Source: Kiritimatiellia bacterium (GTDB lineage: Bacteria > Verrucomicrobiota > Kiritimatiellia > RFP12 > UBA1067). From it: DNA of 40,553 nt. The translations under genes and the position numbers were made by a program. How positions within the stretch are numbered: the first letter of the stretch is position 1; each line of letters begins with the position of its first letter. Positions 1,149 through 29,489 of this stretch are shown here, piece after piece. The stretch spans positions 1-40,553 of the forward strand of contig JAFXIL010000019.1 of NCBI GenBank assembly GCA_017563185.1, given 5' to 3'. The notes under the pieces are model-generated. The model saw only the letters and a program-made list of their open reading frames with translations. It did no database searches and had not been told where the DNA came from.

Positions 1149-1883
1149 ATGAAGAAAGTGTTTCTGATGGTTGCCGCGATGGGACTTGCTGCTGCGAGCT
1201 TCGCGGATATGAACGACGCGCTGCTTTCGTTCGCGACGCATGGCCCCGACAAGTATGCCGACGGCACTACCGTGATCGACGGCGAGTGCTATGCGCTCGT
1301 GTGGACAGCGGCGGGAGCCGAGTTCGGCGGCTTCAAGGCCGATGGCACGCTCGCTTCCGCCACTGACCGTCTCGTTCTGGCCGCTCCGCTCGCGAAGGGC
1401 GGCAAGTGCCCGCAGACGCTCTTCCAGATCAACGCCGCCGTTGCCGACGAGCTCAAGGACGGCACCTACGCCGTCTATCTGCTCGACACGCGCGTGAAGG
1501 CCGAAGATGGCACCACCCAGCTCGCCGGCTTCAAGGACGGCAAGGCCAAGGTGGTCAACGCGCAGGCCGCGGTCGGCGATTCCACCGCCGCAGCCGCCAC
1601 GACGCAGACCAAGGTCGCCCTTGCGGCCACTGCGGTCGGCGGAGCCGCGATCACTGCCGAGACGATCATCGACGCCCCGCAGATCACGGGCATCAAGGTT
1701 GAAGGCGCCACTGTGAAGGTGACCGTTGCGGGCATGTCGCCTGCAGCCACCTACAAGGTTGTGACCTGCACCAAGCCTGGCGATGTCGGCAAGGCCCTCG
1801 ACGCCAAGGCCAAGGACGGAACGTTCGAGTTCAAGAAGCCCGAAGGCACCTTCTTCAAGGTCATCGGCACGCGCAACTTCTAA
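1149..1883 (+). CDS. Small exported protein of unknown function
   Basis: The 244-residue protein has a clear signal peptide, MKKVFLMVAAMGLAAASFA, with cleavage expected after SFA. The mature part is rich in Ala, Lys, Asp and Gly and has many short beta-prone stretches. No catalytic motif is visible. Two mature cysteines sit in the first third (ECYALVW, GGKCPQTLF) and a third in a late VVTCTKPGD element. The ending, FFKVIGTRNF, resembles the C-terminal strand found in many PVC exported proteins (an xFYRVxx-like close). It lies 38 bases after the LamG-like gene and 30 bases before the next exported gene, so the four genes are probably co-transcribed. I do not recognise the family. Confidence 0.75.
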   Translation: MKKVFLMVAAMGLAAASFADMNDALLSFATHGPDKYADGTTVIDGECYALVWTAAGAEFGGFKADGTLASATDRLVLAAPLAKGGKCPQTLFQINAAVADELKDGTYAVYLLDTRVKAEDGTTQLAGFKDGKAKVVNAQAAVGDSTAAAATTQTKVALAATAVGGAAITAETIIDAPQITGIKVEGATVKVTVAGMSPAATYKVVTCTKPGDVGKALDAKAKDGTFEFKKPEGTFFKVIGTRNF

Positions 1884-1913
1884 TAATCCACGCGCAAGAA
1901 AGGGACAACAAAG

Positions 1914-2657
1914 ATGAAGATCAGAAGTGTTCTCTGCGCGCTTGCGGCAGCTGCCGCGGCGACGGTCTTCGCGGACGTCACAAGCAACGTCTGCGGTCTG
2001 CTCAAGATCACGAGCGACCTCAACAACACCATCATCGGCGTGCCGTGGGTTGAAGTTGGCACCGGCGCCGACGTGAAGGTCGCCAAGCTCGTCAAGACGG
2101 ACAATCTCACGCCAGGGGATATGCTCTACTACTATCAGAACGGTACGTGGAATGCATGGACGCTCGGCGCGCAGGGCTGGGAGCGAAACACCACGGTCAA
2201 GGTTGACGGCATCACAGTTGCCGCCCCGCAGGAGGCCCAGGGAGTAGCGCGCGGCAAGGCGCTAATCCTTGAGCGCAAAGGCGACGTGACGAAGCCGTTC
2301 TACCTCTACGGCCAGTTCACTTCCGATGCCGCAGCTGCTCAGACCATCACGGTCGGCACGGCTTCCGCGCCGAGCTACACGCTCCTTGCGAGCCCCAAGG
2401 TCGAGGCGTTCGACTTCAATGCCGAGGGCAAGATCGTCAATCCCGGCGTCAATGACCAGATTATTATCCCGAAGAACGGTGGCGACAACACCATCCTCAC
2501 GCTTCAGGACGGCAAGTGGGGCTACAGGAAGGCGACCACGGCTAAGAAATTCGGCAAGACTGTGACGACCTACACCTGGACTCAGGCCGATGCGCTTGCG
2601 GCCGGCACGGGCTTTTGGTATGTCTCCAAGGGCGGTACGCCCACCTTCAACTGGTAA
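1914..2657 (+). CDS. Small exported protein with an internal repeat
   Basis: The 247-residue protein starts with the signal peptide MKIRSVLCALAAAAAATVFA. The mature part seems to be two related halves. Each has a beta strand ending in an aromatic-rich turn (YYYQNGTWNAW in the first half, LQDGKWGYRK in the second) followed by a segment ending in a GKALILERK or GTGFWYVSKGG element. This pattern recalls Verrucomicrobial exported proteins that carry repeated 'NGxW...GxxxW' units; that link is from memory and unverified. The ribosome-binding site AGAAAGGGA lies 8 bases before ATG 1914. The gene is 27 bases from the PEP-CTERM gene and probably shares its transcript. No enzyme motif is visible; a structural or surface role is inferred. 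Confidence 0.72.
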   Translation: MKIRSVLCALAAAAAATVFADVTSNVCGLLKITSDLNNTIIGVPWVEVGTGADVKVAKLVKTDNLTPGDMLYYYQNGTWNAWTLGAQGWERNTTVKVDGITVAAPQEAQGVARGKALILERKGDVTKPFYLYGQFTSDAAAAQTITVGTASAPSYTLLASPKVEAFDFNAEGKIVNPGVNDQIIIPKNGGDNTILTLQDGKWGYRKATTAKKFGKTVTTYTWTQADALAAGTGFWYVSKGGTPTFNW

Positions 2658-2684
2658 CAACGACTTCTAAAAAGGAAAACGGAA

Positions 2685-3206
2685 ATGAAGAAGATTGTTT
2701 TTGCTGGAATGGTTGTGCTTGCGGCGGCTTTTGCACATGCGGACTTCCTCTATTGGCAGATTGCCGATCAGGGAGAGTTCACAACGGCAAGCCTCTGGGT
2801 GAAGAACACTGGTTCGAGCGCTGGCATTGAGGCGCTTGACGTTATCGTGGCCGAGGGTGTGGACATTGACAATGGCACGGTTCTCACGGGAACGACCACT
2901 GGACTCGTCTCGACAGACATTTCTGCCTATGCAGCCGATCAGTATTCCTTCTTTGTGGAGCTTGCGACTTATGCGAGCCTTGAAGACGAGAATCCTACCA
3001 GCCAGAAGTGGCTCAACTCCTACAGTTATAAGGATCTCGTCTCGAATGGTTATATTTCGACTGGCGATGTGGGCACTCCTGGTGCGGCGTCGTCCGGCGG
3101 CGCGCCGATGAGTGGCGGCGGAAATGCCATTCCCGAGCCTACGAGCGGCATGCTGATGCTTCTCGGCGGTGCGCTGATGGCGCTGCGTCGCCGTCGCAGG
3201 GCGTAG
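2685..3206 (+). CDS. PEP-CTERM surface-sorted protein
   Basis: The 173-residue protein has an N-terminal signal peptide (MKKIVFAGMVVLAAAFAHA) and a C-terminal PEP-CTERM sorting signal. The tail reads IPEPTSG, then a hydrophobic stretch (MLMLLGGALMAL), then a run of arginines, which is the classical tripartite signal. In characterised systems such tails are recognised by an exosortase at the inner membrane. No exosortase gene is in this window, so the processing enzyme must be elsewhere. The mature domain (about residues 20-140) is acidic and beta-rich, with a Gly/Ser-rich linker just before the PEP motif. It is the last of four adjacent exported genes. The ribosome-binding site AAAGGA lies 8 bases before the ATG. 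Confidence 0.85.
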   Translation: MKKIVFAGMVVLAAAFAHADFLYWQIADQGEFTTASLWVKNTGSSAGIEALDVIVAEGVDIDNGTVLTGTTTGLVSTDISAYAADQYSFFVELATYASLEDENPTSQKWLNSYSYKDLVSNGYISTGDVGTPGAASSGGAPMSGGGNAIPEPTSGMLMLLGGALMALRRRRRA

Positions 3207-8006: not shown

Positions 8007-8037
8007 AAAAAGAAACCAGATGGGGAAGGCAAGTCCA

Positions 8038-10758
8038 ATGAACGACAAAAACACGGAACAGTTGATAGCCACGCCTGCGGTGTTCGGGCACTTCGAGCTT
8101 GAAAAGGAGCTTGGGCACGGCGGCATGGGCGGCGTGTATCTTGCGCGCGACAAGATGCTTGACCGCAAGGTTGGCATCAAGGTGATGCTCAAGTCGCTGG
8201 GCGACGACCCCGCGTTCGTGGAGCGCTTTCAGCGCGAGGCGCAGGCGGCTGCACGCCTGAACCATCCAAACATCGCGCAGATATACTCTTTTGGCACCGA
8301 GCAGGGCATGCCCTACATCGCGATGGAGCTTGTGAGCGGGGGCTCGCTTGACAGGGATATGGAGGCGAACCCAGGCACGCTCGACCCGGTGCGCGTTATG
8401 AAGATCGGCCTGCAGATGGCCGAGGCGCTCGCCACCGCATCAGACCAGGGGCTTGTGCACGGCGATGTGAAGCCGGAGAACGTGCTGTTCGACGCCGAGG
8501 GCAACGCGAAGCTCGTGGACTTCGGTCTCGCCGCCATGCAGGGCGACTCCGACGAGATCTGGGGCACGCCGTACTACATCTCCCCCGAAAAGGTGCGGCG
8601 CCAGAAGATCGACTATCGCGCCGACATCTACTCACTCGGCGGCACGCTTTACCACGCGCTCACGGGCGTGGCGCCGTTCGAGGGCGAAGACGCTACGGCC
8701 GTGGTGAAGGCGCGCTTCGACGGGCCGCCCACGCCGCCCAGCGAGATGCGCCCCGATCTGCCCAAGGACCTCGATCCGATCATCATGCGCATGCTCGAGC
8801 TTGAGCCCTCGATGCGCTATCCAACCTACCAGTCGCTAATCGGCGACATCAAGCGCTTCCTCGCGAAGGCGGGACCGGTGAAGACTTCGCGTCTGGCTAG
8901 CGGAAAGCTCAAGATAAAGGGCCTGAGGCCGACGGTCAAGCCGCCGTCCGCAGAGGGTGGGGCTGAGGACAAGCCTGGCGGAGGACTGCGTCCGCTCGTA
9001 GATCCCGCCCCCGAGAAGCAGACGAACGTGGGGCGCATGGTGGGCCTTGCGGTGCTAGGCGTGGTACTTGCCATAGTGGGCACCGTGGGGGGCCTTGTGT
9101 GGTACGTCAAGGCCAACAAGGAGGGCAAGCAGCGCGCCGAGCAGGCGCAGGCCGTGGCGAAGGTGGCCGAGGCGCGAGAGGCGATCGCGAACACCGTTAA
9201 GAACACGGATGAATACGGGGCGAACTTCCATGAGCTCATGATGCGGGGCGACCGTCTCATGGCCGACGCAACGCGCAGAATCAAGGCCGGGCTTCCCACG
9301 GACATGCGCTTGGTGGCGGAGCCGATGCTGGATTTGATGCTTAAGAAAAACAAGCTCGTCGAAGAGGCCGTGGCGTACACGAACAAGCTGCTCTCGGCGG
9401 ACCAGAAGCAGAAGCCGGCAGATGGGGAAAAGAAGGCCGAGGGCGAGAAGGCGTCCGACGCCAAGAAGGCGGAAGCGGCGAAGCCCGACGAGAAGAAGCC
9501 AGACGAGGCTAAGGCCGAGGTGAAGAAGACTGTCAAGCGCGAGCTTACGGGCGAGGAGGCCGAGGAGGCCGCAGCCGCGCGGGCCATGGCCGAGCAGGAA
9601 GCCCGCGTGCAGGGCAAGCAGCTTCCGAAGGAAGTGCAGGAGGCCGTCGCGAAGGGCGCGGCGAAGGTCGTGGTGAAGCAGGTGGCCGTGGAGTCGAAGG
9701 GCGCGGATCCGGCGGCGGTCGCCGCGGACGCGGCGTCGAAGGCCGGTGTTGCGCTGCCTCAGGCTGTTGTGAAATTCGCCGAGCTGTGGAACGACGTGAT
9801 GATCTGCCGTGCGGCCGACATCCGCGTGCAGGGACACGTGCAGCTGATACACAAGATCGCCGCCAAGGCCGATGAGATCAAAGGCGAGACGTGGGAGGCC
9901 GCGCAGGCGCTTGCGCAGATATCGAAGGACGTACTTGACGAGCACGACAAGATGAAGTCTCTCAAGTGCGTGGAGCAGGCCCAGCGCAGAGCCAGCGTCA
10001 TACGCACGAATTCGCAGTCCCTCGTGAATACAGCCACCATCCAGATCAACAACGCCAAGGCAGCCGAGAGGGCCAAGGCCGAGCGCGAGGCCGAGAGGAA
10101 GGCCCGCGAGGAGAAGGCGAAGGCCGAGAAGGAGGAGCGCGAGCGCCTTAAGGAGGAGGAGCCGAAGGCGGCGAACGCCAAGTTCGAGGAGCTTGCCGGC
10201 TCGCTGCTGAAGACACTTGAATGGGATCGCGCTCTCAAGCAGCTAAAGGCCATGGCTGAGACGTGCAAGACCCCTGAAGGACGCGATGAGGTGCGTTCGC
10301 AGATAGACAAGGTGGAGTGCATGCAGGGAATGCACGAGCACTTCATCAAGTTTGCGAAGGGATTCAAGTTCAAGGACGGCAGCGTGGTGCTGGCCGTGGA
10401 CGCGAAGCGGATCACGATACAGAAGCTGAAGTCCGTGCGAGGCCGCATGGAGCCGGACAGGGTGATCAAGATGGAGTGGACGCGCTTCTACGGCAAGACC
10501 GAGTATGCTCCCTACATGAACGATCTCATCAACGCCCTTGTGATAAAGGGCCGCGAAACCACGAAGATAGGTCCGCTCCCCTGGTCTCGGTACATGCTCG
10601 GCGGAGCTCTCACGCTCAAATATCTCTACACCGAGGTGAGTGGCGCGGACAAGATGGCGCCCGTGCTGGTGAAGACGGCTGTAAAGGAATTCAGCGACTC
10701 CGCCAAGTGGGCGGCTAAGTGGTTCCCCGACGTAGAACTGGAGGTTAACGAACAATGA
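8038..10758 (+). CDS. Membrane-anchored Ser/Thr protein kinase, PknB-like
   Basis: From ATG 8038 the protein has 906 residues. ATG 8020, six codons upstream, would leave almost no leader, while GGAAGG lies about 9 bases before 8038. Residues 17-280 are a Hanks-type kinase: Gly loop G26-H-G-G-M-G-G32, ATP lysine K48, helix-C glutamate E67, catalytic loop H141-G142-D143-V-K145-P-E-N148, metal site D161-F-G and SPE at 182-184. The usual HRD arginine is glycine (HGD), so activation may not depend on activation-loop phosphorylation. One membrane segment lies near residues 333-357. Beyond it is a long Ala/Lys/Glu-rich helical region (about 370-700, with likely coiled coils) and a folded C-terminal domain of unknown type. 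The stop overlaps the symporter start, so the kinase may regulate transport; this is inferred only from position. Confidence 0.88.
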   Translation: MNDKNTEQLIATPAVFGHFELEKELGHGGMGGVYLARDKMLDRKVGIKVMLKSLGDDPAFVERFQREAQAAARLNHPNIAQIYSFGTEQGMPYIAMELVSGGSLDRDMEANPGTLDPVRVMKIGLQMAEALATASDQGLVHGDVKPENVLFDAEGNAKLVDFGLAAMQGDSDEIWGTPYYISPEKVRRQKIDYRADIYSLGGTLYHALTGVAPFEGEDATAVVKARFDGPPTPPSEMRPDLPKDLDPIIMRMLELEPSMRYPTYQSLIGDIKRFLAKAGPVKTSRLASGKLKIKGLRPTVKPPSAEGGAEDKPGGGLRPLVDPAPEKQTNVGRMVGLAVLGVVLAIVGTVGGLVWYVKANKEGKQRAEQAQAVAKVAEAREAIANTVKNTDEYGANFHELMMRGDRLMADATRRIKAGLPTDMRLVAEPMLDLMLKKNKLVEEAVAYTNKLLSADQKQKPADGEKKAEGEKASDAKKAEAAKPDEKKPDEAKAEVKKTVKRELTGEEAEEAAAARAMAEQEARVQGKQLPKEVQEAVAKGAAKVVVKQVAVESKGADPAAVAADAASKAGVALPQAVVKFAELWNDVMICRAADIRVQGHVQLIHKIAAKADEIKGETWEAAQALAQISKDVLDEHDKMKSLKCVEQAQRRASVIRTNSQSLVNTATIQINNAKAAERAKAEREAERKAREEKAKAEKEERERLKEEEPKAANAKFEELAGSLLKTLEWDRALKQLKAMAETCKTPEGRDEVRSQIDKVECMQGMHEHFIKFAKGFKFKDGSVVLAVDAKRITIQKLKSVRGRMEPDRVIKMEWTRFYGKTEYAPYMNDLINALVIKGRETTKIGPLPWSRYMLGGALTLKYLYTEVSGADKMAPVLVKTAVKEFSDSAKWAAKWFPDVELEVNEQ

Positions 10759-12548
10759 GCAAACTCACAACACTAGACATCGGAATCATCATAGGATTTC
10801 TGATAAGCGTAATCGTGATCGGCGCCTGGGCCGCGAAGCGTGCCTCGAAGAGCGCGGAGGACTTCTTCCTCTCCGGCCGCTCCATGCCATGGTGGCTTCT
10901 GGGCGTGTCGATGGTGGCATGCACGTTCTCGTGCGACACGCCGAACCTCGTGACGGACATCGTCCGCACCCAGGGCGTGGCCGGCAACTGGGCGTGGTGG
11001 GCGTTTCTCCTCACCGGCATGCTGACGGTGTTCGTGTACGCTAAGCTGTGGCGGCGCAGCAATCTCTCCACTGACCTCGGGTTCTACGAAATCCGCTACG
11101 CGGGCACCCCCGCGAAGGCGCTGCGCGGCTTCCGCGCGGTGTATCTCGGCCTCGTCTTCAACATCATCGTGATGGGCACGGTGTCGCTAGCGGCGATCAA
11201 GATCGGGGCGACCATATTCGGCATATCGCCGGAGGCGACTCTGGCGATAGCGCTCGTCTCCGTTGGCATATATGCCACCCTCGGCGGTCTCACGGGATCC
11301 ATCTGGGCCGACTTCTACCAGTACACCGTGGCGATGGTCGGCGCGGTGGCGGCCGCCTACTTCGCCGTCAAGATGTGCGGCGACGGCGGCACTGGGGGCA
11401 CGCTCGCCGGGCTCTTCAACAATCCCGCCGTAGCCGCCAAGATGTCGATGTTCCCCGCAACGACGGGCGAGGGCTGGCGTTCCAACCTGATGACGATACT
11501 GATCATACCCGTTGCCGTGCAGTGGTGGGCCACATGGTATCCGGGCGCCGAGCCCGGCGGCGGCGGCTACATCGCGCAGCGCATGCTCTCCGCCAAGGAC
11601 GAGAAGAACGCCGTGGGCGCCGTGATGCTCTTCAACTTCCTGCACTACGCCCTGCGCAGCTGGCCGTGGCTGATAGTGGCCCTCGCCTCGCTCGTCGTGT
11701 TCCCGGACCTCGCGTCGCTCAAGGAGGCGTTCCCCGGCGCGGCCGAGCAGTTCATCAAGCACGACATGGCCTATCCTGCCATGATCTCCAAGCTGCCGCC
11801 CGGATGGCTCGGCCTTGTGGCGGCTTCGCTCATCGCCGCCTACATGTCCACGATCGCCACGCACCTCAACTGGGGATCCTCCTATCTGGTGCAGGACTTC
11901 TACGTGCGCTTCATCAATCCCAAGGCCGAGCCGAAGAAGCAGGTGCTCATGGGCCGCCTGTTCATGCTCGTTCTGCTCGTCGGCTGCGCCGTGATGGCGC
12001 TTGTGCTGCAGAGCGCGAAGGGCGGCTTCGACCTGATGCTGCAGGTGGGCGCGGGCACCGGCCTCATATACATCCTGCGCTGGTTCTGGCACCGCCTGAA
12101 CGCATGGAGCGAGATTTCCGCGATGATCATCTCCTTCCTCGTCGCCTGCTTCTTCCAGTGGGGCGCGCCCGCGTGCGGCCTAGAGGCGTGGCTGCAGGAG
12201 GGCTGGCGCGCCGAATGGTTCACTCTCGGCGCCTGGAAGCTCATCCTCGGCGTTGTGATCACCACCATGGGATGGCTTGCAGTGACCTTTGCGACTCCTG
12301 CGGAGCCCAAGGAGACTCTCGATGCGTTCGACAGGCTCATCCACGCCGATCTGCGCGAGCTGCCGATGGGCGTCGTGTGCATGGTGTTTGGTTGCCTTGC
12401 GGTGTGGACGTGCCTCTTCGGTTGCGGCTACCTGATCTACGCTGCCGGCGGCGCCGGATGCTGGTGCCTGGGAGGCGGGCTTCTCGCCGCCTCGGTGGCG
12501 TCCACCGTCGTGCTGATGAAGCTGGTGGGCCGCACGAAGCTCTCGTAG
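10755..12548 (+). CDS. Sodium:solute symporter (SSS/SLC5 family)
   Basis: The 597-residue, multi-pass membrane protein should import a solute with sodium. The opening (LDIGIIIGFLISVIVIGAWA, then SAEDFFLSGRSMPWWLLG) is the typical first helix, loop and re-entrant start of the family. GNWAWWAFLLTG, GGLTGSIWADFYQYT and NWGSSYLVQDFYVRF (the family's late signature region) follow in the expected order. The C-terminus has two extra hydrophobic segments (about residues 535-590), making the protein longer than minimal members. The substrate cannot be read from the sequence. The downstream SIS-domain and PfkB kinase genes favour a sugar, amino sugar or nucleoside. ATG 10755 overlaps the kinase stop by four bases. 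Confidence 0.9.
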   Translation: MSKLTTLDIGIIIGFLISVIVIGAWAAKRASKSAEDFFLSGRSMPWWLLGVSMVACTFSCDTPNLVTDIVRTQGVAGNWAWWAFLLTGMLTVFVYAKLWRRSNLSTDLGFYEIRYAGTPAKALRGFRAVYLGLVFNIIVMGTVSLAAIKIGATIFGISPEATLAIALVSVGIYATLGGLTGSIWADFYQYTVAMVGAVAAAYFAVKMCGDGGTGGTLAGLFNNPAVAAKMSMFPATTGEGWRSNLMTILIIPVAVQWWATWYPGAEPGGGGYIAQRMLSAKDEKNAVGAVMLFNFLHYALRSWPWLIVALASLVVFPDLASLKEAFPGAAEQFIKHDMAYPAMISKLPPGWLGLVAASLIAAYMSTIATHLNWGSSYLVQDFYVRFINPKAEPKKQVLMGRLFMLVLLVGCAVMALVLQSAKGGFDLMLQVGAGTGLIYILRWFWHRLNAWSEISAMIISFLVACFFQWGAPACGLEAWLQEGWRAEWFTLGAWKLILGVVITTMGWLAVTFATPAEPKETLDAFDRLIHADLRELPMGVVCMVFGCLAVWTCLFGCGYLIYAAGGAGCWCLGGGLLAASVASTVVLMKLVGRTKLS

Positions 12549-14120: not shown

Positions 14121-16162
14121 AGGCAGGCGCGGCGGAAGGCGAACGGCTGTTCAAGCTCGTTTCGGACTACAATCCGACGGGCGACCAGCCCGAGGCGATA
14201 GACGCGCTCGTGAAGGGACTCGAACGCGGCGAGCGCCGTCTCGTGCTTCAGGGCGTCACCGGCAGCGGCAAGACGTTCACGATGGCGAACCTCATCCAGC
14301 GATGGAACCGCCCAACTCTCATCCTCTCGCACAACAAGACGCTTGCGGCCCAGCTCTTTGCGGAGTTGCGCGGGTTCTTCCCCGAGAACGCCGTGGAGTA
14401 CTTCATCTCGTACTACGACTACTACCAGCCAGAGGCGTACATCCCGCAGACCGACACCTACATCGAGAAGGACGCCTCGGTGAACGAGGAGATCGAGCGC
14501 TACCGCCTCGCCGCCACAAACGCGCTCATTGCGCGCAGGGACGTGGTGGTGGTGGCGTCTGTGAGCTGCATCTACGGCCTCGGCGAGTCCACAGAGTACC
14601 GCGACCTCGCGGTGAAGTTCTCCGTCGGCGACTCGTGCGGACGCGGCGATCTCGTGGAGCGGCTCATAGCCGCGCAGTACGTGCGCAACGACATGGACTA
14701 CTCGCCCGGCACCTTCCGCGTGCGCGGCGACACGGTGGACATCTTCCCCGCGTATGCCACCGACGGCATCCGCGTTGACTTCTTCGGCGACGAGATCGAC
14801 TCCATCCGCCAGCTTTCCGTGCCCGACTTCCACATGGGCGTCTCCATGCCCGCCGCAGTGGTCACTCCCGCCAAGCAGTTCGTGATGCCGCGCGACAAGA
14901 TGGAGGCCGCGTACGTCCGCATCGAGAACGAGCTCAGGGACCGTCTCAAGTACTTCGAGGGCGCGAAGAAGTTCCTCGAGGCGCAGCGGCTCAGGGAGCG
15001 CACCGAGTACGACATCGAGATGATGAAGGAGCTCGGGTACTGCAATGGAATCGAGAACTATTCGCGCCCGCTCACCGGCCGCGCGCCCGGCGAGCCGCCC
15101 GAATGCCTGCTCGACTACTTTCCTGACGACTTCCTCACCATCATCGACGAGAGCCACGTGGCTGTGCCGCAGCTGCGGGCGATGTACAACGGCGACCAGG
15201 CGCGCAAGCAGAAGCTCGTCGATTTCGGCTTCCGCCTGCCGAGCGCAAAGGACAATCGTCCTCTAAAGTTCCCCGAGTTCGAGAAGAAGGTGCATCAGAT
15301 CGTGTTCACGAGCGCGACGCCGGGCGACTACGAGTACGAGGTGTCGAAGACCGTGGCGGAGCAGGTGATAAGGCCTACGGGGCTTCTGGATCCTGAGATC
15401 GAGCTGCGTCCGCTCAAAGGCCAGATAGACGACCTCATGGAGGAGATCCGCAAGACGGCGGAGAAGGGCGACCGCGTGCTCGTGACCACGCTCACGAAGC
15501 GCAGCGCCGAAGACCTCACGGCCTATCTCCACGAGACCGGCCTGCGCGTCGAATATCTCCACAGCGGCATAGACGCCCTCGAGCGCGTGGCGATTCTCGG
15601 CCGGCTTAGGAAGGGCGAGTTCGACTGTCTCATCGGCATCAACCTCCTGCGCGAGGGCCTCGACTTCCCCGAGGTGGCGCTTGTGGCGATACTCGACGCC
15701 GACAAGGAGGGCTTCCTGCGCTCGACCACCTCCCTCGTCCAGACGGCGGGCCGCTGCGCCCGTCACGTGAAGGGGCGCGTGATCCTCTACTGCGACCATC
15801 AGACCGACGCGATCAAGGACCTTCTGCGCATCACGAAGAGCCACCGCGACAGGCAGATCGCCTACAACAAGGCGCACCACATCACCCCAAAAAGCGTGAA
15901 GCGGGCGATCAACGAGGCCGTCTACGTCTATTCCGAGGCGAAGAAGGCGGAGCGCGCCGCCGTGGCGGAGAAGACGCCCGAGGCGGGCGACCTGCGCGAG
16001 ACGATCGCCGCGCTCCAGGAGGAGATGATGCAGGCGGCCGACGCGCTCGAATTCGAGCGCGCCGCCTATCTGCGCGACCAGATCAACGCGCTGAAGAAGG
16101 AGAAGGGTACTCCTGGTCCACGAACGGAGGCTTGCCGAGGCGCTTCGCATCGACGGGCCTGA
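14117..16162 (+). CDS. uvrB: UvrB, excision-repair helicase subunit
   Basis: From ATG 14117 (overlapping the PfkB stop as ATGA) the protein has 681 residues, near the usual 660-680. UvrB verifies DNA damage with UvrA and recruits UvrC. Visible elements: Walker A GVTGSGKT (46-53), the tyrosine-rich beta-hairpin (YYDYYQPEAYIPQTDTYIEK), the IDESH box, helicase motif GINLLREGLDFPEV, motif VI as QTAGRCARH (commonly QTIGRAARN), and a C-terminal UVR domain ending DALEFERAAYLRDQINALKKE. The last 19 residues after the UVR domain look unrelated to the family and are encoded where the gene overlaps the 3' end of the convergent beta-helix gene. A repair gene at the end of a sugar operon is unusual. Confidence 0.96.
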   Translation: MKAGAAEGERLFKLVSDYNPTGDQPEAIDALVKGLERGERRLVLQGVTGSGKTFTMANLIQRWNRPTLILSHNKTLAAQLFAELRGFFPENAVEYFISYYDYYQPEAYIPQTDTYIEKDASVNEEIERYRLAATNALIARRDVVVVASVSCIYGLGESTEYRDLAVKFSVGDSCGRGDLVERLIAAQYVRNDMDYSPGTFRVRGDTVDIFPAYATDGIRVDFFGDEIDSIRQLSVPDFHMGVSMPAAVVTPAKQFVMPRDKMEAAYVRIENELRDRLKYFEGAKKFLEAQRLRERTEYDIEMMKELGYCNGIENYSRPLTGRAPGEPPECLLDYFPDDFLTIIDESHVAVPQLRAMYNGDQARKQKLVDFGFRLPSAKDNRPLKFPEFEKKVHQIVFTSATPGDYEYEVSKTVAEQVIRPTGLLDPEIELRPLKGQIDDLMEEIRKTAEKGDRVLVTTLTKRSAEDLTAYLHETGLRVEYLHSGIDALERVAILGRLRKGEFDCLIGINLLREGLDFPEVALVAILDADKEGFLRSTTSLVQTAGRCARHVKGRVILYCDHQTDAIKDLLRITKSHRDRQIAYNKAHHITPKSVKRAINEAVYVYSEAKKAERAAVAEKTPEAGDLRETIAALQEEMMQAADALEFERAAYLRDQINALKKEKGTPGPRTEACRGASHRRA

Positions 16163-18143
16163 ATTCGGGCTTCTTCGAATCGGCCGGCGGGGCGATGGTG
16201 CATTCGCCCGTTGCCTCGTCCACCTTCCAGCACGCCTCCGGGACCATCCAGTTGTCCTCGTAGCGGCTCTTGTGGGCCTCCTTCGCGAAGCGCGGGTCGT
16301 TTCCAAGGACGTTGTTGATGAACACGAACGCGCCCTGGCCGCACTCGACCTCGTCGAGCGAGTCTATCGTGACGGAATGCGGCTTGAAGATCGGAGTGCG
16401 GCGCTTGTCGTTGTGGTAGTGGTACTTTCCGCGCATGCGGTTGCCCACGAACGCCGCGCCCTGCGAATATGCCATGAGCGCCATGTCGGAGAGCAGGTCG
16501 TTGCCCTCCACGAGGATCGGGCCGTGGTCAACCTCGAAGAACAGGTCGCGCTTGTTCGCCCACATCCTGTTGCCGACCACGCGCGCGCCCTGCGCCATCC
16601 AGTCGAGCCAGATGCCGCCGATGTCGCCGCAGTGGTGGATGCGGCAGTTGGAGATCGTGAAGTCGACGGCCGCGTGGATCTTGATGCCGGCCATCTCCGC
16701 GCCGCCGTAGGGCTTCTTCCAGTGGCAGTAGGAGATGTCGCAGTCGTCGATGGTGGAAAAGACGGCGCCGAGCGAGCCGCAGATTCCGGCCTGGCCGCAG
16801 TCCGTGACGCGGCAGCGGCGCACCAGGTGCCGTCCAACGCGGTCGAGGCCGTTGGAGACGCAGCGCATGATGGTGTTGTGGTAGTTCTGCGCGGTGGGGC
16901 CCACGTTGTCGAACTCGTCGCCGTACTTGCCGAGCGTGATGCCGCTGCACTCCGTGCCGTACACTTCGCAGTCCTCGATCGTCCAGCCCCTGCTCCAGTT
17001 CGTGCCCACGATGGCCGTCTGCTCGCTCGTGGGCGGCGCCCAGTTCGGCCCGGCGTTGGCGAACGCGATGCCGCGAAGGGTGATGTGGTCGCGGTGCTCG
17101 ACGACGGGGTAGAAGCATGCGGGGCGCACGATCAGCTCGGGGATGGACACGTTGGGATCCTTTTCGAACGCGGCCACGATGGTGCCGTACACCATGCCCT
17201 GGATCATGACGGCGTTGCCGGGCTTGACCAGCCCGGCGAGGCCGAGGGGCCGCCCCACCACGTCGGCGTCGCGCACGCGGAGAAGCAGGTCCTTCACGCC
17301 GGCAGCGGAGTCGGGCAGCGTCACCTCGACGGTGGAGTACTTCCTCCAGTCTCCCGTGAGCGGCGGCCTGACCGTCGCGAGCGGCTTTTCGGGGCTTGCC
17401 GCGTCGCAGATTTCGATCAGCGCCAGGAACATCATGCTCGAGAAATGTATCTTGAGCCGACGGGCAGCGGGCGTGGAGAGGTCGAAGCCCTTGTAGAGGA
17501 TCGTCGATTTGTCGTAGATCCACCCCAGCTCCATGCCCCACTGGGTGGGATGGCCGGGCTTGACGTTGGGGCTCTTCGCGGCGGCGGAGTCGCCGGGCAC
17601 GGTGCGCGCGCCGGAGGTGATGCCGGCGATGTTCACGAGCGCGCGGTTGGCGGCGCCGCCGTGGCCGAGGATGAGGTCGCGGGTATGGAGCTCGAGAGGC
17701 CTGCCGTCCTGGATGAGGCGGGTGCGGAAGCGCTTTCTGCCGCCGTCGCCGAACCAGTCGCCGGAGATGATGTCGGTGAAGGGGTTCATGCCGCCGAAGG
17801 AGTCGTAGTTCACACGCGCAGTCCAGAGCCCGTCGTGGCGCTTCTTCCATCCTCTGACGGGATCGGCGCCGGTAACGAGCACCTTCTCGCCCTTCGCCGC
17901 CCGATAGACGATCGGCGCGCCCTCGCGCCCCGCGTTCGCGGGCTTCACCCATTCGCGGTAGGTGCCGCCGCGTATCGTCACCACGTCGCCCGCCACGGCG
18001 ACGTCCGCCGCGCGCTGGATGGTGCGCCACGGCTTCGCGGCGGAGCCGTCGCCGTCATCGCGGCCGTCGGTCGCCACGAAGTATTCGGCTGCGTTTGCGC
18101 CAGCGCAGCACAGTGCCGCCGCGAGAATCGAGACTGCCTTCAT
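16083..18143 (-). CDS. Exported right-handed beta-helix protein
   Basis: The 686-residue protein starts at the ATG ending at 18143. A GTG start at 18170 is possible, but the ATG is preceded at good distance by AAAGGAA and opens a signal peptide (MKAVSILAAALCCAGANA). The segment GDGSAAKPWRTIQRAADVA (mature start) and GDVVTIRGGTYREWVKPANA are the classical opening of PL/GH-type parallel beta-helix proteins. Residues about 180-310 form an inserted beta-rich domain. Residues about 330-590 are beta-helix rungs (IEDCEVYGTECSGITLG, VRRCRVTDCGQAGICG, ISNCRIHHCGDIGGIWLDW). Such proteins often cleave or bind polysaccharides. No catalytic residue can be assigned. It is the only - strand gene and shares a divergent promoter region with the glycoside hydrolase. 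Its 3' end overlaps uvrB by 80 bases. Confidence 0.87.
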   Translation of the reverse strand: MKAVSILAAALCCAGANAAEYFVATDGRDDGDGSAAKPWRTIQRAADVAVAGDVVTIRGGTYREWVKPANAGREGAPIVYRAAKGEKVLVTGADPVRGWKKRHDGLWTARVNYDSFGGMNPFTDIISGDWFGDGGRKRFRTRLIQDGRPLELHTRDLILGHGGAANRALVNIAGITSGARTVPGDSAAAKSPNVKPGHPTQWGMELGWIYDKSTILYKGFDLSTPAARRLKIHFSSMMFLALIEICDAASPEKPLATVRPPLTGDWRKYSTVEVTLPDSAAGVKDLLLRVRDADVVGRPLGLAGLVKPGNAVMIQGMVYGTIVAAFEKDPNVSIPELIVRPACFYPVVEHRDHITLRGIAFANAGPNWAPPTSEQTAIVGTNWSRGWTIEDCEVYGTECSGITLGKYGDEFDNVGPTAQNYHNTIMRCVSNGLDRVGRHLVRRCRVTDCGQAGICGSLGAVFSTIDDCDISYCHWKKPYGGAEMAGIKIHAAVDFTISNCRIHHCGDIGGIWLDWMAQGARVVGNRMWANKRDLFFEVDHGPILVEGNDLLSDMALMAYSQGAAFVGNRMRGKYHYHNDKRRTPIFKPHSVTIDSLDEVECGQGAFVFINNVLGNDPRFAKEAHKSRYEDNWMVPEACWKVDEATGECTIAPPADSKKPEFRPVDAKRLGKPPFVDQEYPSPSSAR

Positions 18144-18176
18144 CTTGATGTTCCTTTCATTGTTCCCCACGCCATG

Positions 18177-18206
18177 ATTATATCATGATTCTGCCGTCTG
18201 GTGCAA
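18177..18206 (-). promoter_or_regulatory. Promoter of the beta-helix gene
   Basis: On the - strand, TTGCAC (18206-18201), an 18-base spacer and TATAAT (18182-18177) form a near-consensus sigma-70 promoter, with TG one base before the -10 (extended type). Transcription should start near 18170, giving a 27-base leader that carries AAAGGAA. Confidence 0.8.
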
Positions 18207-18247
18207 CATGCTGAGTGGAATCTTGCGCGTTCACGTGGCGCTTGGAG

Positions 18248-18276
18248 TTGCCTGCGACCGAATAAAGATGTATAAT
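18248..18276 (+). promoter_or_regulatory. Promoter of the glycoside hydrolase gene
   Basis: TTGCCT (18248-18253), a 17-base spacer and TATAAT (18271-18276) match sigma-70 spacing exactly. The start point is expected near 18283, giving a leader of about 64 bases. It diverges from the beta-helix promoter 42 bases away, so one regulator could act on both. Confidence 0.78.
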
Positions 18277-18317
18277 CTACGGCGGACGCAACGGAAGAAT
18301 GGTGCGGTGTGCCTTCA

Positions 18318-18350
18318 ATGCCTGATGAAACGCGAGGAGAAATCCCATGA
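18318..18350 (+). other. Possible leader peptide (uORF)
   Basis: A 10-codon frame (MPDETRGEIP) in the leader of the glycoside hydrolase gene ends with a TGA that overlaps the hydrolase ATG as ATGA, the same overlap used between full genes here. It has no clear ribosome-binding site of its own, so it may be chance. Confidence 0.2.
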
Positions 18351-21300
18351 AGAAACTCAAAATCATTGCAGCGGCGATTATGGCCGCGGCTGCGGTCGCG
18401 GCCGCGGGGAACGACCGGGCGGACATGCCGGGCGTGGCGCCGGAGCCGGCCGGCGGATGGAAGAGCAGGGGAATCGCGATAGCCGCGCCCTCGCCGGCAG
18501 ACGTTGGGCGCTTCTGCGCGTTCGTCAAGAACACGCTCAAGCCGGCCGGTGTGGACACCCTGGTGCTGCTCGTTCGGTACCGCTACCAGTTCAAGTCCCA
18601 CCCTGAGTGCAGAAGCGGCGACCCAATCTCCCTTGCCGACGCGAGAGCCATCAGGGCCGCATGCGATGCTGCGGGAATACGCCTCGTCCCTAAGATGAAC
18701 CTGCTTGGGCATCAGAGCGGAAACGAGATACACGACGGGCTTCTCAAAGGACATCCTGAACTTGACGAATCGCCTGAGAAGAAGACCGTGTCGCACAACT
18801 ACTGCCGCAGCATCTGCCCAACCCATCCCGATTCCAGGCGCATCGTGCTGGAGCTCGTCGACGAGATTGTTGATGCGTTCGGTGCGGACGCCGTGCACAT
18901 CGGATGCGACGAGGTGTTCGAGATCGGAAACTGTCCGCGCTGCCGCGGCGTTCCAACGTCGAAGCTCTTCGCCGACTGGGTGAACGGCATCGCGCGCCAC
19001 CTGAGGGCGCGCGGGGTCTCCACGCTGATGTGGGGCGACCGCCTGCTCGACGCGAAGACGACCGGATACGGCGAGTGGGAGGCCAGCGCCAACGGCACCA
19101 GCGCGGCCCTGGGCATGGTGGACAAGGACGTCGCGATCTGCGATTGGCACTACGAGAACCGCAAGGCCTACAAGAGCGTGGAGGTGTTCGCCGACGCGGG
19201 CTACAAGATGTATCTATGCCCGTGGCGCTTTGCCGAGAACGCGCAGAAGTTCCTTTCGTACGCCGTCGCGCACGACAAGGGACAGTACCTTGGCCTCCTG
19301 TTCACCACTTGGTGCGGCTGCGCCGATTTCATGGACGCCGTCGAAGGCAAGAGCCTACGCCACAAGCCCGGCAGCAAAACGGCGCAGACGCTTGCGGCGC
19401 TTCGCAGGAACTTCCGCTACCTCTTCCCTGCCGCGAAGAGCCTGCCCGGCTGCGGCGGAGAGCTCGTCCTCAACGGCGGATTCGAGGATGTGGTGGACGG
19501 CAAGACCGTTGGCTGGAACGCCGTGGGCAGAAAGTTCGTGTACCGCGACGGCGAAGGCCGCAACGGCACGCGCGCGCTCTGCTACGAGAACGACGACCCC
19601 AGTTTCTACTCGTTCCCCGGGCAGAGGATACCGCTTAAGGCCGGACACGCATACGAGTACCAGGTGTGGGTGAAGACGGAGAACCTCTCCGGAGAGGAAA
19701 GCGGCGCGACGATATGCATCGAGTGGTGCAACTCGGACGGCAAGTGGCTGGGCGGCGCGTACGTGAACGGCGTGAAGGGCACGAAGGACTGGACGCTCGT
19801 CAAGGGCGTTACGGACAAGGTGCCGCAGGAGGCCGTGACGGCAAAGGTGAGTCCATACGTGCGAAAGGGAATGAAAGGCAGGGCGTGGTTTGACGACGTG
19901 TCGGTGCGCGAATACGTGCTGCCGCCCGTGGCGGGCGTGTATTCGACGGCGTACCGCAACATGGCGGCGGAGGGCGAAGTGACGTTCCGCGCCGCGCTTG
20001 ACGTGCCGGAAGACCATGCAGGCCCGGACCTCGCCACGTGGTTCACGTATCAGAACGCGAAGGGCGATGTGTGCAGAACGCGCGCCACGAATGCATTGGG
20101 CGACAGCGTGACGCTGAGCGTGGCCGAATTGAAGATGGGCGCGCAGCGCGTCGCGGCCGAGCTCTTAGACGGGAAGGTGCGCCTGGGAGGCGCGGAGACG
20201 ACGTTCACCCGCCTGGAGAGGATGCCGAAGATGTCCACGTGGTTCGACGGCCACGGCCGCGCGATTGTGGACGGCAAGCCGTTCTTTCCGCTTGGCATGT
20301 ACTGGAGCGCCGTCACCACGAACAAGATCGAGATGTACGCGAAGGGTCCGTTCAACTGCCTCATGCCGTACCATGCGCCGGATTCGACGGATATCATGGA
20401 TCTCTGCCACGCAAAGGGCCTGAAGGTGATATACAGCGTAAAGGACATCTACAGCGGCACGCGCTGGGCGCCAAAGGGAATCAAGACGGAGGCAGACGAG
20501 GTGCGCTACGTCACAGACCGCGTGAACCGCTTCAAGAACCATCCCGCTCTTCTCGCATGGTATCTCAACGACGAGCTGCCGCTCAGCATGCTGCCCCGCC
20601 TTGCCGCGCGCCGCGACCTGATGGAGAAGCTTGATCCCGGGCATCCCGGTTGGTCGGTGCTGTACCAGTACAACTCGATCCGCGAGTACATGCCCTCGTT
20701 CGACGTGGTGGGCACCGATCCCTATCCGATTCCGTCTAAGCCGGCGGCAATGGCCACGGAGTGGACTAAGAAAACCATGCGCGGCACTCTCGGGTGCAAG
20801 CCAGTCTGGCAGGTGCCGCAGGCGTTCAACTGGGCCGCTTACAGGAAGACGCCCGAGGAGAAGGCGAAATGCCGCGCGCCGACCGAGGCGGAGCTGCGCT
20901 CGATGTGCTGGCAGTGCATCGCCAACGGCGCGAACGGACTTGTCATGTACTCGTTCTTCGACCTGGAGAAGCGTCCCAACGGCGAGGAGTTCGAACGGAG
21001 GTGGGCGGAGTGCTGCCGAGTTGGCGCGGAGATACGCGCGCAGTTCCCCGTGCTGCTCTCGGACGAGGGCGCGGGCCGTCGGATTGCGGTTGGACTCGGC
21101 TATGGTTCGCCGGACAAGGACTGGAAGGGGCCAAAATACCCGATGTCAGTGCGCGCGTGGGTGAAGGACGGTTGCACATACGTGCTGGTGGTGAACGGAT
21201 ACGACAAGGCGAGGCACATCTGCGTTTCGCTTTCTGACAGACGCTACGACGAGGCGACAAGCGTGTTCGGTCCGGACCCGAAACTGGAGCACGGCGAGAG

Positions 21301-21370
21301 ATTCGACCGTCTGAAGCTCGCTCTTGGGCCTCTCGAGCCCGCCCTCGTGCGTCTTCCCCGCTCAAAATAA
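18347..21370 (+). CDS. Exported two-domain glycoside hydrolase (GH20-like plus GH-A-like)
   Basis: The 1007-residue protein has a signal peptide (about 1-20). Residues 38-340 resemble the GH20 beta-hexosaminidase barrel: H184-I-G-C-D188-E189 matches the HxGGDE catalytic motif (Cys for the second Gly), preceded by RLVPKMNLLGHQSG. Residues about 371-523 form a beta-sandwich of the CBM4/9-like type (LVLNGGFEDV near its start, RAWFDDVSV at its end). Residues about 625-900 form a second barrel opening IVDGKPFFPLGMYW, with WYLNDELP (N741-D742-E743) where clan GH-A enzymes have the Asn-Glu acid/base, and a DVVGTDPYP element. Two catalytic modules suggest stepwise cleavage of an amino-sugar-containing glycan; this is inferred. 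GAGGAG at 18334-18339 is the ribosome-binding site. The beta-helix gene diverges from it. Confidence 0.8.
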   Translation: MKKLKIIAAAIMAAAAVAAAGNDRADMPGVAPEPAGGWKSRGIAIAAPSPADVGRFCAFVKNTLKPAGVDTLVLLVRYRYQFKSHPECRSGDPISLADARAIRAACDAAGIRLVPKMNLLGHQSGNEIHDGLLKGHPELDESPEKKTVSHNYCRSICPTHPDSRRIVLELVDEIVDAFGADAVHIGCDEVFEIGNCPRCRGVPTSKLFADWVNGIARHLRARGVSTLMWGDRLLDAKTTGYGEWEASANGTSAALGMVDKDVAICDWHYENRKAYKSVEVFADAGYKMYLCPWRFAENAQKFLSYAVAHDKGQYLGLLFTTWCGCADFMDAVEGKSLRHKPGSKTAQTLAALRRNFRYLFPAAKSLPGCGGELVLNGGFEDVVDGKTVGWNAVGRKFVYRDGEGRNGTRALCYENDDPSFYSFPGQRIPLKAGHAYEYQVWVKTENLSGEESGATICIEWCNSDGKWLGGAYVNGVKGTKDWTLVKGVTDKVPQEAVTAKVSPYVRKGMKGRAWFDDVSVREYVLPPVAGVYSTAYRNMAAEGEVTFRAALDVPEDHAGPDLATWFTYQNAKGDVCRTRATNALGDSVTLSVAELKMGAQRVAAELLDGKVRLGGAETTFTRLERMPKMSTWFDGHGRAIVDGKPFFPLGMYWSAVTTNKIEMYAKGPFNCLMPYHAPDSTDIMDLCHAKGLKVIYSVKDIYSGTRWAPKGIKTEADEVRYVTDRVNRFKNHPALLAWYLNDELPLSMLPRLAARRDLMEKLDPGHPGWSVLYQYNSIREYMPSFDVVGTDPYPIPSKPAAMATEWTKKTMRGTLGCKPVWQVPQAFNWAAYRKTPEEKAKCRAPTEAELRSMCWQCIANGANGLVMYSFFDLEKRPNGEEFERRWAECCRVGAEIRAQFPVLLSDEGAGRRIAVGLGYGSPDKDWKGPKYPMSVRAWVKDGCTYVLVVNGYDKARHICVSLSDRRYDEATSVFGPDPKLEHGERFDRLKLALGPLEPALVRLPRSK

Positions 21371-27297: not shown

Positions 27298-27648
27298 ATG
27301 GACGTTCTGAGACTGAACGCGATCGAAGTGGACTGCATCCTCGGGGACCTTCCCGAGGAGCGCGTCACCGAGCAGAAGGTACGCGTGGACGTGGCGCTTG
27401 AGATCGACCTGCAGGACGCCGCCCTCTCCGACAGCCTCGACGATACCGTGGACTACGCCATACTCGTCGGCGACATACGCGAGGCCCTCGAAGAGGCGAA
27501 ATGCCGCCTCCTCGAGCGTGCGGCTGACGTGGTTGCGGACGTGTGCCTCGCCGACCCGCGCGTGGAGCGCGTCACCGTGTGCGTGCGCAAGTTCGGAACC
27601 GTCAAAGGGCTCGGCAGCGCCGAGGTCAAGATCGTGAGGCCCGCATGA
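27298..27648 (+). CDS. folB: Dihydroneopterin aldolase
   Basis: The 116-residue protein has the length and layout of FolB, which cleaves dihydroneopterin to the hydroxymethyl-dihydropterin used in folate synthesis. LNAIEVDCILGDLPEERV matches the family's N-terminal strand (commonly GxxxxGxxxxER), and the DTVDYAILVGDIREALE element carries the conserved Tyr that faces the active site (here Y58). LLERAADVVADVCL and the closing VTVCVRKFGTVKGLG follow as usual. The epimerase FolX is a close homologue that cannot be fully excluded. GGAAGGAGG precedes ATG 27298, and its stop overlaps the MurU-AmgK gene start. Confidence 0.85.
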   Translation: MDVLRLNAIEVDCILGDLPEERVTEQKVRVDVALEIDLQDAALSDSLDDTVDYAILVGDIREALEEAKCRLLERAADVVADVCLADPRVERVTVCVRKFGTVKGLGSAEVKIVRPA

Positions 27649-29489
27649 ACGCGCGCGACGTAAAGAAGGCCGTGGTGCTCGCGGCGGGATTCGGCACGCG
27701 CCTGCGGCCGCTCACGCTCGTGGAGCCCAAGCCGCTCCTGCCGATGTGGGGCGTTCCGATGCTGGAGCGCATCATCCTCATGCTCGAGAGCTGGGGCGTG
27801 GAGGAGATCGCCGTGAACGCCCACTGGCAGGCCGAGAAGATCCGCGAGTACGTGTTCAAGCGCCGCGGCACGGCGAAGGTGACTGTTGCCGACGAGCCCG
27901 AGATCCTCGGCACTGGTGGTGTGCTCAATCCGCTGCGCGGCTTCCTTGGCGCGGAGCCGTTCTGGCTGGTGAACGGCGACATTGTTGTTGACGGACTCGA
28001 TCCTCAGTCCGTTGCGGACGCCTATTCCCTGAGCGGCGGCTTCGCCGGCTGCTGGATCAGCGAGGCGTTCGGCCCGCGCACCGTGGAGGCCGACTACGCC
28101 GGAAGGATTTGCAACTGGAAGAGCGACTTCCCTGGCGACGGCGGAACGTACACGTACTGTGGCCTCGCGCTTTTGGGTCCGCAGGTGCTCGACTTTGTGG
28201 CGCCTCAAGGCTTCTCCACGATCGTCCAGGCGTACGAAAGGGCAATGATGGAGCAGGGCCGGTTTGTGGTGGGCGCTGATCCCGACGGTGCATATTGGGC
28301 GGACTGCGGCACGCTCGAAAGCTATCTCGAAGCGCACTCGGCCCTAGATTCCGCCCGTTTCGAGGAGAACCCGAATGTACTTTTCCCCGGCGTGAAGCTT
28401 CTCGACAGCGCCGACCTCGCCGGATGCGTGGTGACGGGCGGGCTTGTGGGCGGCGCGTTCGAGCGCGCTGCACTTGTGGGCGTGGGCCAGATTGGCAACG
28501 CACGTCTTGCCGCGCTCGCCGAGGCGATAGGATGGAATCCTGAGGACGTTGCGGCGGAGTTCATGGGCGCGCGCGGAAGCGACCGCGAGTTCTGGCGCTT
28601 CGTGCACGGCGACGACCGGGCGATAGCGATACTCTACGACGACGAGAAGCGCCCCGAAAACGCGCGCTATGCGCACCATGCGCGACTTCTCGAGAAGGCC
28701 GGCGTGCCGGTGCCGCGCGTCCTCGCCGATCTCCCCGGGGAGAAGGCGCTCGCACTGGAGGACCTTGGAGGCGAATCGCTGGAGGAACGCGCGTCCGCCA
28801 AGGGCGCGAACATCGCGAAGCTCTACGCACCCGTCGTTTCCGCTCTGCGCACCTTCCACGAAAGGGGAGTGGAGCTGGCGCTCGAGGAGAGCGCTGACGC
28901 GCTGGAGCCGGCGTTCGGTCCTGACCTCTACGCATGGGAGCGCGACCTCTTCGAGACTTACTGCGTGAAGGGGCGCTACGGCTATGATGCGATGCCGGAG
29001 GCCGTTCGCGCCGACCTTGAGGCGGTGGCTGCGGAGCTCATGCGCCAGCGTCCCGTATTGGTGCACCGCGACTTCCAGAGCTCGAACGTCCTCTTCCGCC
29101 CTGGCGGGTCGTTCGCCTTCATCGACTTCCAGGGCATGCGCCTTGGCGCGGCCGCGTACGATCTCGCCTCGCTTCTCTACGATCCGTACGTGCCGATGGA
29201 CGAGAAGACGCGCCTTGCGCTCGCCCGCGCGTATCCCGTGCCCGCTTTCGCCTTCGGCGCCGTGCAGCGCCTCGTGCAGGCGCTTGGCGCCTTCGGGCGC
29301 CTTGAGGCGGCCGGCCAGCCGCAGTTCGCGCGCCACGTGCCGCGCGCCCTAGAGAACCTTCTCGCGGCGGCGGACGAGGCCGGGCTGGACGCGCTCGGCG
29401 GATTTGCGGAGGATCTGATCGCCAAGGAGCAGATAAGGCTCGGGCGGATGCACCATGCCCACCACCACGAGGACGACGAGGAGGCATGA
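27645..29489 (+). CDS. MurU-AmgK-like bifunctional nucleotidyltransferase/sugar kinase
   Basis: The 614-residue protein joins two enzymes. Residues 1-235 are a sugar-1-phosphate nucleotidyltransferase: LAAGFGTRLRPLT (12-24), PKPLLP (28-33), LGTGG (88-92) and VNGD112, the metal site. Residues about 255-300 look like a left-handed beta-helix remnant. Residues about 307-600 are an aminoglycoside-phosphotransferase-like kinase: the entry GSDREFWRF, LALEDLGGESL, the catalytic H474-R-D476-F-Q-S-S-N481, and D494-F-Q, with AAYDLASLLYD. These match AmgK (MurNAc/GlcNAc anomeric kinase) and MurU (uridylyltransferase), the cell-wall recycling pair of Pseudomonas. This order, MurU first, would make UDP-MurNAc from recycled MurNAc; the exact sugar is inferred. 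The tail is His-rich (HHAHHHEDDEEA). Confidence 0.83.
   Translation: MNARDVKKAVVLAAGFGTRLRPLTLVEPKPLLPMWGVPMLERIILMLESWGVEEIAVNAHWQAEKIREYVFKRRGTAKVTVADEPEILGTGGVLNPLRGFLGAEPFWLVNGDIVVDGLDPQSVADAYSLSGGFAGCWISEAFGPRTVEADYAGRICNWKSDFPGDGGTYTYCGLALLGPQVLDFVAPQGFSTIVQAYERAMMEQGRFVVGADPDGAYWADCGTLESYLEAHSALDSARFEENPNVLFPGVKLLDSADLAGCVVTGGLVGGAFERAALVGVGQIGNARLAALAEAIGWNPEDVAAEFMGARGSDREFWRFVHGDDRAIAILYDDEKRPENARYAHHARLLEKAGVPVPRVLADLPGEKALALEDLGGESLEERASAKGANIAKLYAPVVSALRTFHERGVELALEESADALEPAFGPDLYAWERDLFETYCVKGRYGYDAMPEAVRADLEAVAAELMRQRPVLVHRDFQSSNVLFRPGGSFAFIDFQGMRLGAAAYDLASLLYDPYVPMDEKTRLALARAYPVPAFAFGAVQRLVQALGAFGRLEAAGQPQFARHVPRALENLLAAADEAGLDALGGFAEDLIAKEQIRLGRMHHAHHHEDDEEA

Follow-up and report, generated by a model that had tools for sequence, protein, structure and literature searches.

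The second of two barrels in one exported protein appears, from its family alignment, to belong to a large family in which an Asp-Glu pair is invariant and strand beta-7 carries no nucleophile, a finding that goes beyond an earlier sequence-only reading of the same DNA and is in our view the most interesting part of this analysis. The gene lies in the window, i.e. the whole stretch of 40,553 nucleotides from a Kiritimatiellia bacterium that was analysed, and its product joins this barrel to a GH20 barrel (Table 1).

Two barrels in one exported protein

The ORF was open over its 1007 codons without a break and, together with the signal peptide, the Pfam GH20 match and a modelled (beta/alpha)8 fold, it bears out the earlier proposal of two barrels in one exported protein. 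In the translation, H184, D188-E189 and N741-D742-E743 were located at the residues named beforehand. A carbohydrate-binding beta-sandwich had also been proposed between the barrels, and a jelly-roll resembling CBM4/9, with beta strands in the model, does sit there; PF02018 (CBM4/9) scored 21.4 bits in the window protein, below the cut-off of 25.9, and matched 15 of the 37 relatives of the second half (best 2.9e-7). Two modules were absent from the first reading: residues from about 528 to 625 form an Ig-like domain, and the chain ends in a beta domain at about 910-1005. Domain borders in the 1007-aa protein are approximate, being taken from predicted models, and our view of active-site geometry is based on alignments and on where the strands lie.

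Table 1. Features of the two-barrel gene and its product, in window coordinates
Feature	Position	Strand	Basis
Whole ORF, exported two-barrel protein, 1007 aa	18347..21370	+	95% identical fused copy in L007/L056
Ribosome-binding site GAGGAG	18334..18339	+	sequence, before ORF start
Signal peptide, residues 1-21	18347..18409	+	sequence MKKLKIIAAAIMAAAAVAAAG; helix 2-21 in model
GH20 catalytic barrel, residues 38-365, without GH20b domain	18458..19441	+	PF00728; 8bal match
HIGCDE motif, H184 to catalytic D188-E189	18896..18913	+	D188/E189 invariant in 16 GH20 rows
Fusion junction, residues 360-372	19424..19462	+	ends of stand-alone homologies
CBM4/9-like jelly-roll, residues 371-525	19457..19921	+	PF02018 below cut-off; beta strands in model
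Ig-like beta domain, residues 528-625	19928..20221	+	secondary structure of model m37aa0971e75a
Clan GH-A-like (beta/alpha)8 barrel, residues 630-905	20234..21061	+	pLDDT, VIA Z, GH158 sequence match
D742-E743, end of strand beta-4; E743 acid/base candidate	20570..20575	+	58/58 family members
P824-Q825, end of strand beta-7, where the nucleophile would be expected	20816..20821	+	58-sequence alignment
C-terminal beta domain, residues 910-1005	21074..21361	+	models

The GH20 half has a complete active site

Pfam GH20 (PF00728) matched residues 96-292 with 36.6 bits, above the cut-off of 22.3. By sequence and by fold, the nearest solved structures of this half were 8bal (E 5.6e-63; VIA Z 34.6, rmsd 2.3 A, 307 residues aligned) and 9fyl/9fym (E about 1e-54; VIA Z about 31), which according to their PDB titles are Niako3494 and a lacto-N-biosidase from Treponema denticola, respectively; a search for literature on 8bal, 9fyl and the Niako3494 work found none. 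Both belong to the same GH20 branch as the window protein (30-35% structural identity) and share with it a single barrel without a GH20b domain, the D-E pair and the DWHYE and WGDRL segments, whereas they consist of one domain, have no second barrel and read HVGLDE where the window protein has HIGCDE. A GH20 barrel without the GH20b domain corresponds to the ‘Model B’ architecture (PMC4449183).

Nine residues (H122, D188, E189, W229, D231, W267, Y269, W293 and W322) were invariant in an alignment of 16 GH20 rows, the farthest of which are near 25% identity. From general knowledge of GH20 enzymes, we assign W229, W267, Y269, W293 and W322 to the acetamido pocket. The H-x-G-x-D-E pair was found at the end of beta-4 as H184-I-G-C-D188-E189. 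In the GH20 half both the GH20 fold and the active site are complete, and the GH20-like barrel first recognised by H184-x3-D188-E189 stands, with the Pfam match above cut-off and the full set of N-acetylhexosamine pocket residues. Its activity and specificity, as a beta-N-acetylhexosaminidase or lacto-N-biosidase, are predicted from the family.

The cysteine that had been singled out as replacing a motif glycine is real but ordinary. Cys is found at position 187 in nearly all 16 rows, including the GH20 paralogues of the window's genome, and Leu takes its place in 8bal and 9fyl; as Cys is the norm among the close relatives in this GH20 branch, we rejected Cys187 as either a defect or a novelty.

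A clan GH-A-like barrel with an Asp-Glu pair and no beta-7 nucleophile

The second barrel was modelled with confidence as a (beta/alpha)8 fold (mean pLDDT 94.7), and its fold neighbours were clan GH-A enzymes, with VIA Z values of 27 for GH164, 26 for GH42 and 25 for GH140, more than 310 residues aligned in these comparisons, and Z values of 21-27 for many members of the clan. The closest fold is that of the GH164 beta-mannosidase Bs164 (6t5o; Z 27), which aligns over 337 residues, the C-terminal part among them, but is only 13-14% identical; the window sequence gives no support for treating the beta-7 residue as catalytically equivalent. The barrel is not named by any Pfam or NCBIfam model.

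Conservation was assessed in 58 sequences, reaching down to 21% identity. Asp742 and Glu743 were present in 58/58, and in the model strand beta-4 spans 735-742, with Glu743 at the strand end. Asp786 and Tyr793 were likewise found in all 58, Asp763 was invariant, and Asp791 and Gln825 (57/58 each) and Glu849 (53/58) were nearly so; Asp791, at the strand end, and Tyr793 lie on beta-6 and Gln825 on beta-7. None of the 58 sequences has an Asp or Glu at the beta-7 columns 817-827, and profile alignment to a GH42 enzyme sets the nucleophile Glu of that enzyme opposite P824 and its next residue, a Gln, opposite Gln825. The Asn that precedes the acid/base as a hallmark of clan GH-A was not found either, Asp742 standing there in 58/58. 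The alignment thus indicates that all members of the family lack the canonical nucleophile but retain an acid/base, and the other conserved acids, Glu849 at a helix start and Asp791 with its GH42 counterpart, likely have structural or ancestral roles.

These observations refine what had been claimed for this barrel. The fold and the invariant Glu743 speak for a second glycosidase barrel, but with the canonical nucleophile missing an ordinary glycosidase cannot be assumed. Similarly, the acid/base candidate proposed at Asn-Asp-Glu 741-743 is in place and Glu743 is fully conserved, but the clan GH-A Asn is replaced by Asp742. Structure prediction, which had been suggested as a check, gave a clan GH-A-like barrel, but one whose beta-7 nucleophile place carries no acid.

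Two named families were considered for the second barrel. The best PDB sequence match was the GH158 structure 9oro (E about 1e-9 to 6e-15), and its acid/base Glu aligns with E743. The GH158 endo-beta-1,3-glucanase BuGH158 has Asn136-Glu137 and a nucleophile, Glu220, on beta-7 (PMC7157763), whereas the window protein has Asp742-Glu743 and no acid at beta-7; lacking both the Asn-Glu and the nucleophile Glu, the barrel was rejected as a GH158 member. GH42 beta-galactosidases resemble it in fold (Z about 26), in a D-x-YP segment at beta-6 and in the Gln past the nucleophile place, but have their nucleophile Glu where the window protein has Pro824. With this Glu missing and PF02449 (GH42) at 19.8 bits, below the cut-off of 21, membership of GH42 was rejected as well.

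Matches to the second barrel were obtained in 138 of the 288 genomes sampled from the phylum, many with several copies, although some of the weaker matches may be other GH-A enzymes. The barrel is thereby placed by sequence in a large, unnamed Verrucomicrobiota family, for which no characterised member was found.

A recent and rare fusion of two secreted proteins

In a set of 346 genomes from the same class, the second half (about 369-1007) had its strong matches mostly in proteins of ~640-700 aa that carry signal peptides of their own. Those of the GH20 half were in proteins of ~400 aa or in other fusions. Both halves occurred in one frame only in the window and in one sister MAG (G192, contig CAMIVJ010000303.1), where the fused protein is 95% identical across 872 residues and the fused frame has 93.5% DNA identity (17911 to 20962). 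An assembly chimera is unlikely, since the same fused frame is present in this independent MAG. The other fusions of the GH20 half in relatives were with an alpha-L-rhamnosidase (GH78-GH20; L037), with SGNH esterases (L038, L040) and with an SGNH esterase plus an apiosidase-like domain (L039). A further, odd pairing was noted in L025 (G247), where the frame 1450-3120 of the reverse complement combines a GH20 of the same branch with a dual-specificity (tyrosine) phosphatase, behind a signal peptide.

Stand-alone GH20 homology stops near 19439 and stand-alone C-half homology begins near 19460. In one genome (G184) the two halves are separate genes on two contigs, with 93% and 77% identity, the 93% being in the second half. 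Two others (G193, L009; G187, L021) have unfused C-half genes in which the signal peptide of the window protein runs straight into a window-like AAKSLP/KSLP segment, with the GH20 codons absent; the difference from the window is in frame, 1044 bp (348 codons), and falls at a short GCCGC-like repeat. The C-half tree is compatible with loss of GH20 in G193/G187 or with its gain in the window lineage. Comparison of the two fused genes gave a dN/dS of 0.115 for the GH20 and 0.111 for the second barrel, so purifying selection is maintaining both halves.

Rather than the new multi-step enzyme that had been envisaged, the comparisons point to a recent, rare fusion, seen in two MAGs, of two normally separate secreted proteins, and not to a settled multi-step enzyme family. 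We found no description of this combination that would assign the whole protein to an already described multi-domain family. Dual-barrel GH20 proteins as such are already known, as EndoE of Enterococcus faecalis is a secreted GH18-GH20 protein whose two barrels act in concert on one glycan (PMC8894350). EndoE and the window protein both carry two glycosidase barrels, one of them GH20, in one secreted protein, whereas the partner in EndoE is a GH18 connected via helical bundles and that in the window protein is a GH-A-like barrel reached through a CBM/Ig linker.

Genomic context and habitat

The neighbours of the fusion gene in the window include a PLP-dependent decarboxylase, a methionyl-tRNA formyltransferase and a pyrimidine phosphorylase after a beta-helix protein, which indicates that there is no dedicated polysaccharide locus around it. 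Ruminant MAGs (roe deer omasum, yak and cattle rumen) account for most of the named second-half relatives and of the close relatives of the GH20; one came from horse feces. The window's genome gave matches, some of them weak, to 8 GH20, 12 GH78-type, 6 GH28-type, 4 fucosidase-type, 6 sulfatase-type and 3 sialidase-type proteins, a content that, as judged from these matches, fits a glycan generalist without specific support for host glycans. The suggested targeting of host glycans has no direct support: the GH20 relatives carry fused GH78, SGNH esterase and apiosidase-like domains, and the GH78-type matches in the genome stand at 12 versus 3 of sialidase type.

Three other genes or gene pairs in the window deserve mention. 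At 16083-18170 (-), a divergently transcribed gene encodes an exported beta-helix protein that has a CBM6-type region and an insertion domain of GH120 type. At 8020-12548 (+), a Ser/Thr protein kinase gene is followed, with an overlap of a few bases, by a sodium:solute symporter gene, and a single frame at 27543-29489 (+) has nucleotidyltransferase and APH-type phosphotransferase matches, perhaps representing a choline or sugar kinase/nucleotidyltransferase fusion.

Discussion

We consider it rather probable that the window protein is an exported bifunctional enzyme, formed by recent fusion in uncultured Kiritimatiellae (mostly from the rumen), in which a substrate-assisted GH20 is combined with a nucleophile-free second barrel. 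In the GH20 half, Glu189 would protonate the leaving group and Asp188 would hold the 2-acetamido group of the substrate, which would attack C1 to give an oxazoline intermediate, and a terminal beta-HexNAc or a HexNAc-ending disaccharide, e.g. lacto-N-biose, would be released. In the second barrel, Glu743 would be the general acid and there would be no usual protein nucleophile; the reaction could be substrate-assisted, with Asp742 steering the 2-substituent, or inverting, with Asp742 or Asp791 as the base. The CBM4/9-like module would keep both active sites on one glycan, where one half may expose the substrate of the other. Adjacent Asp and Glu residues at the end of beta-4, with no nucleophile supplied by the enzyme, are the layout of substrate-assisted enzymes, e.g. 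GH20, and we regard the same layout in the second barrel as a lead towards substrate assistance, not a demonstration of it.

The loss of the nucleophile could also mean that the second barrel is a non-hydrolytic one, a pseudo-glycosidase that only binds glycans and extends the CBM while the GH20 half performs all catalysis. The acid-free nucleophile place of all 58 sequences and the replacement of Asn by Asp before the acid/base would suit this, yet we think it unlikely, as simple decay would hardly leave the D-E pair invariant. A protein that only binds has no evident need to retain an acid pair at the catalytic place down to 21% identity, together with nearly invariant Asp791, Tyr793 and Gln825, nor does purifying selection (dN/dS 0.11) favour it. 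It seems quite improbable to us that another acid, e.g. Asp791 on beta-6 or Glu849 after beta-7, has become the nucleophile and that the barrel is thus an ordinary retaining enzyme of clan GH-A. Both are conserved and Asp791 is positioned at the end of its strand, but GH42 enzymes have an Asp aligned with Asp791 beside a separate Glu nucleophile, so that this residue need not be new, and Glu849 is three residues past Thr846 at the start of helix alpha-7, presumably the usual place for helix capping.

As the fusion is young and was seen in two genomes, the two activities may be coupled only incidentally. That the fusion is an accident and the halves work independently, as they do in species with separate genes, is a serious possibility, although on balance not the outcome we would expect. 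The separate halves of G184, the direct joining of the signal peptide to the C-half across the 1044-bp in-frame difference in G193/G187 and the several unrelated domains fused to the GH20 half elsewhere are all in line with it; on the other hand, two species-level MAGs have kept the fused frame intact, and purifying selection acts on both halves.

The second barrel raises a further idea, which we put forward with little confidence: the family would be a clan GH-A lineage that dropped its nucleophile and acts on 2-acetamido sugars with a substrate-assisted Asp-Glu pair, having converged on the chemistry of GH20, GH84 and GH123. Our literature search found no relevant paper on nucleophile-free clan GH-A enzymes. 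If the idea were true, two unrelated barrels with the same chemistry would have been joined in one protein of the window. More generally, the fusion ties a large, unnamed Verrucomicrobiota family of glycosidase-like proteins to the well-understood GH20 and thereby offers a hint about its substrate, and the invariant Asp-Glu pair without a beta-7 nucleophile poses a testable question for clan GH-A, namely how such a barrel cleaves, if it cleaves at all.
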